From contig VGZC01000001.1 of NCBI GenBank assembly GCA_016872725.1, positions 124,001 through 188,000 of the forward strand: a stretch of 64,000 bases of DNA, read 5' to 3'. The notes beneath the pieces were generated by a model. It made no database searches, was not told where the DNA came from, and saw only the letters and a list, made by a program, of their open reading frames with translations. A program made the translations under genes and the position numbers. Shown piece after piece: positions 938 to 63,134 of this stretch. The stretch is from Planctomycetota bacterium. Lineage in GTDB: Bacteria; Planctomycetota; Planctomycetia; Pirellulales; Pirellulaceae. How positions within the stretch are numbered: the stretch's first letter is position 1; each line of letters begins with the position of its first letter.

Positions 938-3900
938 ATGAGTTATTTTGGGATACCGATCCGGGATGGCGCGGCGATGGTCCGAGCGGCAACCGTCGTC
1001 TGTTTGCTCACGGGGCTTGCGCGGGGCGACGAATTCGGCGAGCCGGTCCGCGCGCCCGGACTGCGGGCCGTGTTTCAATCGGCGACGGCCGTCTCGCCCG
1101 AACGGATCGACCCCGTGCTCTCGTTCGCATGGCGTGGCGGGCGGCCCGATGCGACGCTCGACACCGGCCCGTTTTCCGCGCGATGGAGCGGGTATCTCAT
1201 GTCCGAATCGGACGGGGATTATCAACTCCATGTATTTGCGAGCGGCAAAGTCCGAGTCCGACTCAACGGAACCGCCGTGCTCGACGTCGATCACGGAGCG
1301 CCGGCCTGGTCGAGTTCCCAACCGATCACCTTGGCGTTCGCATGGCATCCGCTCGAAGTCGAATACGAGCGTGGCGGAACCGAGCCGAGACTCGGCCTCT
1401 ACTGGAGCGGGCCTCAGTTCGGGTTGGAACGGATTGATGAACGGCACTTGGCGCACGACGGCGGATCGGATGTGTCGTCTTCCGCGGAACGTGGCCGCCG
1501 CTTGGCCCGCGCGCTGCGCTGCGACGCGTGCCACGGCGAATCCGAGCGACCCGGCGTCGGGATGCTCGCCGCGCCCGATCTCTCGATGGCGGGCCGATAC
1601 GTGAAGCCCGGTTGGATCGCCGAGTCGCTGTCGCGTCGATCCCGCGCGGCGGGCGATGGGAATCCCTCATCGAGCACGGACGAAGCGAGATCCAGATCCA
1701 AGTCCAAATCCAATACCAATACCAACACCAATACCGAAACGGAGGCTGGCGAACCGAGCGGTTCGGAGCCGATCGAAAGCCCGCTCGACCGCGAAATGCC
1801 CTACTACGCGCTCAGCGCCGATGATACGGCCGCTCTGGTCGCCTTCCTATCCGGGACCGTGTCGAATGCATCCGGGAGAACGGGCGATGCGGCTCGGCAA
1901 CGGCCCGAATCGCGCGAGGATCGTGATGAGGGCCGCCGCCTGTTCCTCACGACGGGGTGCCTCGCATGCCATTCGTTCGAACGGATGCGTAGTCCCGGAC
2001 TGTTCGGCGGGGGAGACCTGACTCACATTGCGGAAAAGCGTCCCGAGGCTTTTTTTGATGAATGGCTTGCGCATCCCGAGACGATCAACGGCAGCCACCG
2101 GATGCCCGTTTTTGACTTGAAGGACGCGGAGCGGCGTCAACTCGCGTCGTTTCTCGCGACGTTGACAAACCGATCGGCGGGCGATTCCCTCGCTCCCGTT
2201 CCGCGCGGCGGCGACCCGCCGGGCCGGGCGGGAGACGGTGGAGGGAGCGACGAGGGAGGGGTCGCGACGGCGGGCCTCGCGCGGCGCGGCCGCGCTCGGT
2301 TCCTGGAACTGGGCTGCGCGCGTTGCCACGCGGCGCGCGGGATCGCGCCCGGCGAAGTCGCGGCGCGTGAACGCGCGCGAGGACTCGACGCCGAATCGCG
2401 GTGGGACGCGTCCTGCGCCGGGCCTCCTCGTGACGATCGACCGGGATATGATCTCGAATCGCGTGATGCCGACGCGCTCCGCGCTTACTATTCCTCGCGC
2501 CGATCGGAGCCGGGCGCGCTGGCCGATCGAGGCCGCTTGTGGATCGAGGAATACCGATGCGCGTCGTGCCATGCGCGCGGCGCGGCGGGCGGCCTTTCCG
2601 CTCGACTCGCGGAATTCGCCGAGGCGTATCCCGAATTCGCGCCGTCGGTCGCCGCGATGGCGCCGCCGTCCTTGAATCAGATCGGCGACAAACTGCACGA
2701 CGACGCGCTGCGAAAAGCCATCCGCCGGGAAGGGCCCGCGCGCCGCCCGTGGCTTTCCGTCCGCATGCCTCGGTTCGCCATTCCCGATGCCTCGCGCGCC
2801 GATCTGACCGGGTTCCTCGTCGACCACGATCGGATCCCCGACGGCGCTCCCGCGACACCGCGCGGCGCGGACCCGCGTTTCGATGCCGTCGTGGGTGAAC
2901 GGCTTGTCACACACGATGGCTTTGGTTGCACGAGCTGCCACACGGTCGGCAAGGTCGAGGCTCCGAACGGGCCGATCCATACGATGGGCCCCGACTTGTT
3001 GGGATTGGGCGAGCGGATTCGAAAGCCCTGGTTCGATCGCTGGGTGCGCGATCCCGCGCGGATCGTCCCGCGGATCGAGATGCCTTCGGTTCGGATCCCC
3101 GTGCAAGGCGTCTTGAACGAACATCTTGACGATCAGCTCGCCGCCGTCTGGCGCACGCTCAACCGGCCCGACTTCCGACCTCCCGAGCCGTATCCGGTCC
3201 GCGTCGTCGGTCGGTCGGGCCGTGCCGAGGATCGCGAACCGCCGATCGTGTTGACCGATGTCCTGCATACCGGCACGAAGTCGTACATCAAACCGTTGTT
3301 GATCGCCCTGCCGAGCCGCGACAACATCTTGTTGGATCTCGAAGAGGGCCGTTTGGCCGAATGGTGGACGGGCGACGCGGCTCGACAACGCACGCGAGGC
3401 AAGTCGTGGTTCTGGGAATCGGCGGGAATCGACTTGTTGCGCGGCGATCCGGCGGGGGCCGAGCTCGAGGTGGAATGGAACGGCAATCGCGTCGCGCCGC
3501 GGCGCGACGGCCAGTTCATCACGGAATTCGATGAACTGCGCATCGGGCCGGAAGGCGCGGTCGAAGTCGCGTTCCGACTGGGCTGGCCGGTCGATGCCGA
3601 GCACACGGTGGTCGCACGCGTGCGCCAATCGTTTCGCGCCGGCCCCGAGCCCGGCGCGGTGTCGCGCCGGATCGAGATCGACGGGATTCCCGAAGGAGCG
3701 CGAGTCGTCTTTCGATCGGTCCTGCCGCATCGCGCCGAAACGGCCGTGGGCGAAGGATCCGTCCGGTTCTCGAACGGCGATGATCCCGTGACGTGGACGA
3801 TCGAGGACTCGGCCGGTTGGACGGTGTCCGAGGATCGATCGGCCGTCGTCGCCGACGGGCAAGGCGGCCGCTGCTCGTTGTCCCTGACGTATCATCGGCC

Positions 3901-60672: not shown

Positions 60673-60743
60673 GAGCCCGTGACCGGCCGCGTGATCGGCC
60701 GTCATCGCTCGAAGCAATACCTTCCCATAAGGAAGTGAACGCC

Positions 60744-61283
60744 GTGTTGTCCGTAAGACCCAAGGTTGCGGAACTCGCTTTCCAGCTCTATGGCCGCGCG
60801 TTGCACCCCGAACTGTTCAAGGTCTTTCGATCGTGCCGCGCGCAGCGGGGCGATCACGAGGCGCGGCTCGACATCACCAGCGCGGGCCACGTCATCACAT
60901 GGCGTTACCGGGGACTCACGCTGACGGAGGTCGCGGCCGCCGCGAACCACCCGCTCCCCAAGCGGCGTCGATTGCTCAATTATCGGCTGCGCGACGAACG
61001 TTCGGACCGGGTCGAATGCCGGGGAGGGATCGTCTACGAGACGACGTTCCAGCTCGACACGATCGCCCCCGAGCTGTTTTGGGTTCTCCAGCAGGAGCTC
61101 GCCCGCGAAGGCGAACGATCGGGCCTCATGCATCAGTTCGATTCGAGCGGACGCATGGCGCTCGGCGCGCTGAGCTACATGCACGTCGAAACGCGCTCGC
61201 GCAGCATGCGCGTCCAGGCCTTCCACACGTTCCCCGATGATTTCGCCATCGTGCGCAGCCGATCGACGTTCGAGCTGCCGTAG
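60744..61283 (+). CDS. DUF2617 family protein
   Basis: From GTG 60744 the protein has 179 residues: AAGGAA lies 9 bases upstream, while GTG 60735 would be too close to it. The sequence 'RPKVAELAFQLYGRALHPELF' at the start and 'YETTFQLDTIAPELFWVLQQEL' match DUF2617. These are small proteins without signal peptide or known function. The gene has the best promoter in this region (perfect TATAAT). It ends just before the first copy of the 141-bp direct repeat. Confidence 0.85.
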   Translation: MLSVRPKVAELAFQLYGRALHPELFKVFRSCRAQRGDHEARLDITSAGHVITWRYRGLTLTEVAAAANHPLPKRRRLLNYRLRDERSDRVECRGGIVYETTFQLDTIAPELFWVLQQELAREGERSGLMHQFDSSGRMALGALSYMHVETRSRSMRVQAFHTFPDDFAIVRSRSTFELP

Positions 61284-61297
61284 GGCCCGCGGCACGG

Positions 61298-61438
61298 GAA
61301 GGGCTCTTCAAGAAACGCGCGGATCGCCCCGTTGACGGCGTCGGGCGCTTCGAGGGGCGCCATATGTCCCGCGTCGGCGATTTCCGTGAATCGCGCGCGG
61401 GGCATCGCGCCGGCCATCGCGCGCATCTCGGCGACCGG
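61298..61438 (-). pseudogene. Remnant of the hydrolase 3' end (direct repeat copy A)
   Basis: These 141 bp are identical to 62316-62456, the last 47 sense codons of the alpha/beta hydrolase gene, in the same orientation and frame. Weaker similarity continues to about 61446 with two mismatches. The catalytic His (in DAGHMAP) is included but the nucleophile Ser, the Asp and any start codon are missing. The stop codon is not part of the repeat, so the frame runs on toward the DUF2617 gene. This fragment cannot make a working hydrolase. Confidence 0.9.
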
Positions 61439-61499
61439 CGCCAGGACCAACGCTCGACCGGATTGCCGTCGTTGAGCCTCCCATGCGGCCGAATCGACG

Positions 61500-61508
61500 T
61501 GCTATAAT
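61500..61508 (+). promoter_or_regulatory. Extended -10 promoter of the toxin-antitoxin module
   Basis: TGCTATAAT is a perfect extended -10 element (TGnTATAAT). The transcription start would be near 61515, giving a leader of about 27 bases before ATG 61542. It lies outside the repeat copy. Confidence 0.6.
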
Positions 61509-61541
61509 CCGGGTGCCACGTATCGAGTCGAGGATGCGCCA

Positions 61542-61757
61542 ATGAACGTCGTGACAGCCATCTATCGAAATGGGCGTCTCGAATTGACCTCGCCGGTTGA
61601 TTGGCCCGATGGCACGCCGGTCGAAGTCAAGCCGGTTCATATTTCCGGGCAGCGACCGAGTTGGCGATCACTTCAACCGGTTGACGTTGGCCGATTTCAG
61701 GAAACGTCGCGAGACGACGACCCGCTTGGAGAGATGTTGGATGATTCACGGGATTGA
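61542..61757 (+). CDS. AF2212-like (DUF104-type) antitoxin
   Basis: A 71-residue protein. The N-terminus 'AIYRNGRLELTSPVDWPDGTPVEVKPV' matches the AF2212-like antitoxin pattern, a small beta-barrel that carries the DNA-binding and dimerisation function, followed by a flexible acidic tail that would wrap around the toxin. The last 17 bp overlap the toxin gene, the usual coupling for such pairs. It should neutralise the PIN toxin and autoregulate the operon (inference from family). Confidence 0.82.
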   Translation: MNVVTAIYRNGRLELTSPVDWPDGTPVEVKPVHISGQRPSWRSLQPVDVGRFQETSRDDDPLGEMLDDSRD

Positions 61758-62172
61758 TACGTCATTCTTGGTCGCCGTGGAACTTTCATCGCATTCTCAG
61801 CACGTAGCCGCCCGCCAACTACTGCTTTCGCTCCATCAAATCGGCGATCGATTTGGACTCGCGCCGCAGGTGCTTGCGGAATTCGTTCACATCGTGACCG
61901 ACTCAAGGAGATGTGCGAAACCCTTGACCATGGGCGATGCTCTTGATCGCGCGTCGCAACTCTGGAACGCTGTGGAAACCGTACGACTCTTGCCGAGTGA
62001 CGCCGGCGTCGCGTGTTTCTTCACCTGGATGCGCCGACACCGCCTCGGCCGAAAGCGCTTATTGGACACGCAGCTCGCGGCAACATTCCACGCGGCGGGG
62101 ATCGGTTCGGTCTTGTCGTTGAACCGACCGGATTTTGAGTTATTCGGCTGTTTCTCGATTCAGGGATCCTGA
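61741..62172 (+). CDS. PIN-domain toxin (VapC-like)
   Basis: A 143-residue protein starting at ATG 61741 inside the end of the antitoxin gene, with GGAGA upstream. PIN-domain acidic residues: Asp6 in 'GIDTSFLVAV', Glu47 in 'VLAEFVHIV' and Asp109 in 'LLDTQLAATF', expected to bind Mg/Mn and cleave RNA. The length fits VapC-type nucleases. The target RNA is not known. The whole module lies between the two copies of the hydrolase 3' end. Confidence 0.85.
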   Translation: MIHGIDTSFLVAVELSSHSQHVAARQLLLSLHQIGDRFGLAPQVLAEFVHIVTDSRRCAKPLTMGDALDRASQLWNAVETVRLLPSDAGVACFFTWMRRHRLGRKRLLDTQLAATFHAAGIGSVLSLNRPDFELFGCFSIQGS

Positions 62173-62312
62173 TCTCGATCGAGTGCCGGTTCTTCTCGCC
62201 TTGAATTCGCCGCCATGGTCCCACGGGAGCAAACCACGATAACCAAGAGAGGCGCCGAGGGAAAAGTCTCGGCGTGGCATCCCCACCCGGCCCTCCGCTC
62301 ATGCCGGCGGCC

Positions 62313-63134
62313 CTAGAAGGGCTCTTCAAGAAACGCGCGGATCGCCCCGTTGACGGCGTCGGGCGCTTCGAGGGGCGCCATATGTCCCGCGTCGGCGATT
62401 TCCGTGAATCGCGCGCGGGGCATCGCGCCGGCCATCGCGCGCATCTCGGCGACCGGGGTCAGGATGTCGTGCCGGCCGCATACGACGAGCGTGGGCACGT
62501 CGATTCGCACAAGGCGGTCCTGGTACGACGCGCGGGCGGCCATCCCGCGGAGCGCGGCGGCGGCCGTTTCGCGCGGAGTGGCCGACATGACCGAACGCGT
62601 CGCGCCGACGATCGGCGGACCCTCCTCCATCGTCCGCGGCGCGAATAGCCGAGCCAACCATCCGTCCACGAACGGCTCGACCCCGTCCCGCTCGACGGCA
62701 TCCGCCGTCCGCAACCGGATCGCGGCCGCGTCCGGGGAATCCGATGCGGCGCGCGTGTCGCACAATACGAGCCGGGCGAGCCGGTCCGCGTGCCGTTTCC
62801 AAAACTCGAACGCCACGTAGCCGCCCATCGAGAGCCCGACGAGCGCGATCGGTCGGGTGATGCGGAGCGCGTCGAGCCGGTCGGCCAGATCGTCGGCAAG
62901 CCGCTCCATCGCCAGGCCGCGCGGGTCGTTCCGCGACCGTTCATCCAACGCGGGACCGTTCCCGAATCCGCGCTGATCGGGCGCGAGCACGGGTCCGACC
63001 CGCGCGAACGCGTCGACCTGATGACTCCACATCGAATGGTCGAGCGGGAATCCGTGGACGAACACGAGCGGTCCGTCGAATGGCCCTTCAAGAAGTTCCG
63101 GCGCGTCCGACGCGCGTTGTCCGTCCCCCGCCAT
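62313..63134 (-). CDS. Alpha/beta hydrolase
   Basis: A 273-residue protein with the full triad: Ser102 in GLSMGG, Asp223 in 'CGRHDILTP' and His251 in 'DAGHMAPLE'. The oxyanion region is 'VHGFPLDHSMW'. It resembles 3-oxoadipate enol-lactonase-like hydrolases; the substrate is uncertain. No signal peptide. GAGGAAA lies about 4 bases before ATG 63134. The last 47 codons are repeated at 61298-61438. The gene therefore appears complete although a fragment of its own 3' end lies about 1 kb away. Confidence 0.88.
   Translation of the reverse strand: MAGDGQRASDAPELLEGPFDGPLVFVHGFPLDHSMWSHQVDAFARVGPVLAPDQRGFGNGPALDERSRNDPRGLAMERLADDLADRLDALRITRPIALVGLSMGGYVAFEFWKRHADRLARLVLCDTRAASDSPDAAAIRLRTADAVERDGVEPFVDGWLARLFAPRTMEEGPPIVGATRSVMSATPRETAAAALRGMAARASYQDRLVRIDVPTLVVCGRHDILTPVAEMRAMAGAMPRARFTEIADAGHMAPLEAPDAVNGAIRAFLEEPF
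62316..62456. repeat. 141-bp direct repeat, copy B (inside the hydrolase gene)
   Basis: Identical to 61298-61438 at all 141 positions by inspection, 1018 bp apart, same orientation. It starts directly after the hydrolase stop codon (CTA at 62313-62315 on the plus strand) and covers the gene's last 47 sense codons. With copy A it brackets the toxin-antitoxin module. Confidence 0.93.

Follow-up and report, generated by a model that had tools for sequence, protein, structure and literature searches.

The locus analyzed here raises the question of how a toxin-antitoxin (TA) gene pair came to lie between two copies of the end of an alpha/beta hydrolase gene while that gene stayed whole. It belongs to a 64,000-nucleotide stretch of contig VGZC01000001.1 from a Planctomycetota bacterium, which we refer to as the window. 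A direct repeat of 141 bp is present there (61298-61438 and 62316-62456, 100% identical, spacing of 1018 bp), and the probability of an exact repeat of this length by chance is negligible. When mismatches were allowed in the repeat search, the 141-bp core lengthened to 162 bp at 96%. The earlier note had described two identical copies at this distance around the TA pair, and the exact match in the sequence bears this out. The features of the region are the following:

60735-61283, plus strand: DUF2617 gene, the left neighbor (Pfam PF10936, E 2e-11); lies beside the hydrolase gene in eight relatives
61284-61297, no strand: 14-bp junction from the DUF2617 stop codon to the dead repeat copy, read from the sequence
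61298-61438, minus strand: repeat copy 1, 47 codons from the hydrolase 3' end left as a dead fragment without a stop, exact match to 62316-62456
61439-62315, no strand: inserted segment of 877 bp; flanks without in-register homology beyond the repeat, absent in relatives
61500-61508, plus strand: candidate extended -10-like element TGCTATAAT before the antitoxin gene, read from the sequence
61542-61757, plus strand: AF2212-like antitoxin gene, 71 aa (open reading frame; weak match to Pfam PF01954)
61741-62172, plus strand: PIN-domain VapC-type toxin gene, 143 aa (Pfam PIN, TIGR00028, VapC43), overlapping the antitoxin gene by 17 bp
62313-63134, minus strand: intact alpha/beta hydrolase gene, 273 aa (Pfam PF00561, E 2e-27), stop codon TAG at 62313-62315, 3' end duplicated
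62316-62456, minus strand: repeat copy 2, the 3' end of the intact hydrolase gene (last 47 sense codons)

The outer edge of copy 2 directly adjoins the hydrolase stop codon, and the inner repeat edge lies four codons 3' of the Asp in CGRHDILT. The remnant (copy 1) retains the GHM segment and is without this Asp. That the repeat begins at the stop and ends before the catalytic Asp, leaving the hydrolase intact and a dead copy by DUF2617, had been claimed before and was read from the sequence again. Copy 1 lacks a stop codon; its frame continues (...EEPFPCRGPYG...) into DUF2617 in antisense. A small deletion that occurred once the fragment was useless may explain the missing stop. The complete identity of the copies fits a recent event, and gene conversion could also maintain it; the donor sequence may have equaled that of the recipient here, the event may be recent, or conversion may be keeping the copies alike. 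Because the copies are 100% identical, any crossover is hidden, and no donor/recipient mosaic is visible in the window. We also looked for homology past the repeat edges. The same-orientation alignment beat 300 shuffles but was shifted out of register by 126 bp, and that in inverted orientation was within chance; therefore, no mosaic is claimed for the window. A 13-mer upstream of the antitoxin gene, CGAATCGACGTGC (61490-61502), is the exact reverse complement of a hydrolase stretch just past the inner repeat edge (62495-62507), where the wider inverted alignment is within chance.

The genes between the repeats have the layout of a type II TA module, in which a PIN toxin gene is immediately preceded by a small antitoxin gene that overlaps it. 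The toxin matched Pfam PIN with an E value of 1e-4 and 23.3 bits (under the cut-off of 23.6) and NCBIfam TIGR00028 (VapC) with an E value of 4.8e-14, again under the cut-off of that model. A profile of toxin relatives matched VapC43 (PDB 7vwo; E 4e-9), and the acidic residues D6, E47, D109, and D131 are invariant in ten relatives (alignment A1). The antitoxin showed a weak match to AF2212-like proteins (E 0.007, under the cut-off). The pair is thus predicted to be an intact type II VapC/PIN toxin-antitoxin. The G+C content of the TA genes is 56-57%, compared to 65-71% for the neighboring host genes. The only plausible genes in the 877-bp insert are the two TA open reading frames, neither of which encodes a recombinase, in line with the earlier remark that no integrase or transposase is seen. 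A repeat search found no inverted repeat joining the two ends of the insert. A transposon was therefore rejected, given the lack of terminal inverted repeats and a duplication that is 141 bp rather than short. Plasmid or phage carriage was likewise rejected, with no match to the window module in plasmids or viral contigs. The repeat and the TA module occur once in the genome, and a search of that genome ruled out a second copy of the module. A consensus promoter-element scan did not pick up TGCTATAAT. Between the toxin and hydrolase genes, a hairpin-like sequence, CGCCGAGGGAAAAGTCTCGGCG (62250-62277), may serve as a terminator for either the module or the hydrolase gene. Judged by eye from open reading frames, one PIN toxin family appears to be accompanied by differing antitoxin types (AF2212-like, ribbon-helix-helix-like, and others) in the window and at loci L034, L054, and L060.

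Comparison with related genomes gave the direction of the event. Among 60 relatives searched, eight have the DUF2617 and hydrolase genes adjacent and convergent without the TA pair, with 21-170 bp between the two stop codons; two of the eight belong to the same family and six to the same order, so that the comparison is made at the family/order level (no same-genus genome). The 14-bp junction in the window is shorter than any of these gaps. Because the eight relatives have the two genes adjacent without it, the module is an insertion. Together with the foreign G+C content of the TA genes, this result upholds the earlier proposal of an insertion, for which a search for the hydrolase gene without the cassette had been suggested: the TA module was inserted and is horizontally acquired. 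In relative L010, the hydrolase terminates at the corresponding residue (VNAALVNFLEAPV, compared with VNGAIRAFLEEPF for the intact copy in the window); therefore, the position of the stop codon in this intact copy is ancestral.

The earlier note had also suggested looking for the same module elsewhere, and the same architecture was found to recur at PIN TA loci of relatives. In a first set of toxin homologs, direct repeats lay on both sides of the TA genes at L054 (toxin 52% identical), L034, and L060. When 398 genomes of the class were then searched with a profile, many more PIN loci emerged, and these were scored together with control positions by identical criteria. Direct repeats straddled 18 of 119 distinct PIN TA loci and 11 of 519 control positions (odds ratio of 8, p = 1.3e-7). 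With repeats of at least 80% identity only, the counts were 16/119 and 3/519, the three controls including at least one internal protein repeat. Inspection of control matches showed an internal repeat of a giant protein (L291) and short repeats of unclear kind (L275 and L162). ParE loci were straddled in 1 of 29 cases; the difference between PIN and ParE was not significant (p 0.12), and a PIN-specific pattern was therefore not accepted. We set aside a repeat array around L066/L175, which does not belong to the gene-end type. Repeat lengths ranged from 46 to 178 bp across loci, no shared sequence was seen, and the attC core motif pair (RYYYAAC / GTTRRRY) was found in none of 17 TA-straddling repeats of relatives. 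At L060, from a proteobacterial MAG, a 631-bp direct repeat of 93% identity (525-1149 and 2486-3115) lies upstream of the TA locus; this region also contains further short repeats and is one of repeated duplication.

In the clearest cases, the repeats are the ends of host genes, with a different gene almost each time:

L128: 3' end of a DHDPS-family gene
L152: 3' end of an alcohol dehydrogenase gene
L153: 3' end of a flavin reductase gene
L054: 3' end of a T2SSE ATPase gene
L127: 3' end of the formaldehyde-activating enzyme (Fae) gene
L184: 3' end of a beta-propeller protein gene
L187: 3' end of an unnamed gene
L186: 5' end of a TatD gene, with the outer edge exactly at the start codon

The stop codon is present in both copies, or reached in frame at nearly the same place, in 7 of 8 3'-end cases, the window being the exception. 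Outer repeat edges fall no more than 20 bp before and 29 bp after the stop; inner edges are abrupt. If a duplicated stretch were of random extent, it would ignore stop codons, while homologous gene ends followed by unrelated downstream DNA would respect them. Because most of the repeats end where the reading frame of the gene stops, a single, plain duplication of the target is not the interpretation we prefer. Synonymous differences between the copies outnumbered nonsynonymous ones in several cases, although not at L127, L146, or L236. In a set of loci without L127, 7 of 24 differences were nonsynonymous (p 0.003 against a decaying-duplicate model). This bias was not taken to prove that both alleles had been functional, because it weakened when L127, L144, L146, and L236 were added. 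Two of the loci showed additional features. At L054 (2879-3121 and 4023-4163), the remnant downstream of the TA genes has suffered an internal deletion, and the two pieces of the T2SSE gene end now meet at AGGAAA, a short sequence common to both. At L128, a partly palindromic repeat of 120-131 bp adjoins the remnant (about 3650-3780); it resembles a miniature mobile repeat, since copies of 95-96% identity occur at other places in that genome and more distant ones in relatives.

The most telling locus is L127. Its intact Fae gene combines the native body with the terminus HKLGLEGDL*, and the remnant ends in HKLGVDGEL*, as does the gene of the same-genus genome G517. The DNA after the remnant matches the G517 flank. 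About 120 bp in the middle of the two copies are identical, and in-frame differences appear again at the inner edge. The intact gene thus carries a foreign 3' terminus and the remnant the native one, which is the footprint expected once a resident gene end has crossed over with an incoming one. A single Fae end without a TA pair is present in many genomes of the family. Elsewhere, this end has been used repeatedly. In G496, the order at the Fae end is Fae, a ParE-family TA pair, a Fae remnant that has a stop codon of its own, and a PIN TA pair, so that two TA modules stand in tandem at one gene end with a gene remnant between them (L236, 1636-4000). In G517 itself, a cassette of two unnamed open reading frames (141 and 108 aa) at the Fae end is followed by a 28-bp perfect Fae 3' repeat (L235, 1312-2261); these two frames are possibly an unrecognized TA pair.

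We consider it fairly probable that the module was acquired by homology-guided recombination at the hydrolase 3' end and that the native end was displaced. The TA pair would have arrived on DNA that also contained, next to it, a version of the hydrolase gene end. A RecA-type crossover in the shared gene end would have joined the recipient gene body to the incoming 3' terminus, and the far end of the incoming DNA would have been joined illegitimately inside the gene end of the recipient (homology-facilitated illegitimate recombination). Alternatively, for this far-end join, the donor may have been circular or may already have had the order repeat-TA-repeat. The recipient's own gene end would thereby have been pushed to the far side to become the dead fragment by DUF2617. 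Once made, a repeat-TA-repeat unit would be transmissible by homologous recombination at the same gene, and toxin addiction would disfavor loss of the cassette; such loss might occur by recombination between the copies, as proposed earlier. The genome of the window encodes a ComEC homolog, which is compatible with DNA uptake but is no proof of it. The earlier idea that the insertion had rebuilt the 3' end of its target gains from the recurrent pattern, above all from L127; it stands by analogy, the copies in the window itself being 100% identical. Several observations count against homology-guided acquisition. The identical copies in the window show no mosaic, and copy 1 has no stop, so that the native gene end is unpreserved and a deletion or mutation must be assumed. 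The excess of synonymous differences does not hold at all loci, and with the pattern at only 1 of 29 ParE loci, it may or may not be general over TA families.

The window alone cannot decide between homology-guided capture and a plain duplication of the target, in which a staggered break or copy error would have duplicated the recipient's own 141 bp around a TA fragment. Such a duplication would produce the order repeat-insert-repeat with repeats of ~100 bp, as described for restriction-modification (RM) systems (PMC3874152; PMC3031569). The perfect identity in the window is what a single source sequence would be expected to give, and a copy 1 without a stop would cause no difficulty, since the flank would need no native gene end. 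However, across unrelated genes the outer edges gather at stop codons, which a randomly placed duplication would not do, and at L127 the outer ends of the two copies represent distinct coding alleles. Moreover, if the left flank had once run through the 141 bp into the gene body, the ancestral hydrolase gene would have overlapped DUF2617 in antisense, an arrangement seen in no relative. We therefore regard a true long target duplication as rather unlikely. A site-specific recombinase acting in trans (from an integron, a Xer/dif module, or a tyrosine integrase) with the gene end as its attachment site is very improbable. Rebuilding of a 3' end does follow the logic of integrases that use gene ends, and the Fae 3' end is occupied by different cassettes in different genomes, in one of them by two tandem TA modules. 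This explanation has against it that the cassette contains no recombinase gene, that no repeat contains an attC core motif pair, and that the repeated gene differs in almost every case, with lengths of 46 to 178 bp and no shared sequence.

A technical origin had to be considered as well. An assembly graph loop, for instance, a 1018-bp circle or a strain variant, might have been written out with a repeat as long as the k-mer. The largest default k of one widely used assembler is 141, which is the length of the repeat, and the assembly of the organism consists of 100 contigs. Yet the architecture is found with non-identical copies elsewhere, including on a 10.4-Mb contig (G507, 96%), and the repeat ends at a stop codon as at other loci. 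Because non-identical copies recur in other assemblies and the edge is biologically placed, an artefact is unlikely, and we give it hardly any weight. A broader version of homology-guided acquisition seems doubtful to us: TA modules of Planctomycetota and Verrucomicrobiota might be autonomous gene-end elements, moving as a circle or fragment with the terminal 50-180 bp of a host gene, integrating at the end of that gene through a defined host pathway, rebuilding the gene, and stacking in tandem at ends like that of Fae, with no recombinase of their own.

Several known systems resemble the arrangement in part. The closest precedent is found in RM systems, which have been reported to insert with long, variable target duplications and have been likened to TA systems, although a review ascribes mobility of this kind to RM and not to TA systems (PMC3874152; PMC3031569). 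A literature search that covered few subscription journals found no description of such insertion for TA modules. Insertion of RM systems with long target duplication was reportedly described by Nobusato et al. in 2000 and Furuta et al. in 2010, work that PMC3874152 and PMC3031569 summarize. Both kinds of locus have a small gene module with addictive potential and without a transposase of its own between long (~100 bp, variable) direct repeats of the target, and both were deduced by comparison with empty sites. In contrast to RM insertions, the cargo here is a type II TA pair in Planctomycetota and Verrucomicrobiota without restriction-modification genes, and each repeat is the end of a gene, with a stop or start codon at its outer edge; in one case (L127), the copies are different alleles. 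Homology-facilitated illegitimate recombination, in which one end is joined by homology and the other illegitimately, is an established route for such joins and can leave a duplicated segment (PMC3240628). It was shown in laboratory transformation and conjugation (PMC3240628), whereas here it would be deduced from anatomy alone.

Prophages and ICEs at gene or tRNA 3' ends also supply a replacement 3' end and leave the displaced end at the far side; unlike those elements, the cassettes described here have no integrase, and their target gene is different in almost every case. Integrons hold TA genes as short cassettes between repeats. Here, no attC motif pairs were found and the repeats are coding sequence, that of the hydrolase in the window, so that integron cassettes were ruled out. 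The Xer sites of pdif modules are about 28 bp long. These modules, found on Acinetobacter plasmids, are small, mobile, and repeat bounded, and some carry TA genes (PMC6449649, PMC13141974). They are bounded by Xer sites for XerC/XerD, in contrast to the gene-specific repeats of 46-178 bp observed here.

The presence of the same layout at the ends of unrelated genes in many relatives suggests that TA pairs can slip in at gene ends while leaving the gene unbroken. This bears on the old question of how chromosomal TA genes move without a transposase or integrase. Duplicated gene ends with edges at stop codons point to a testable route, homology-guided capture that keeps the target gene whole, and would extend to TA pairs a mechanism proposed for RM systems. 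The footprint may also serve as a simple signature for recent insertions in any genome collection.
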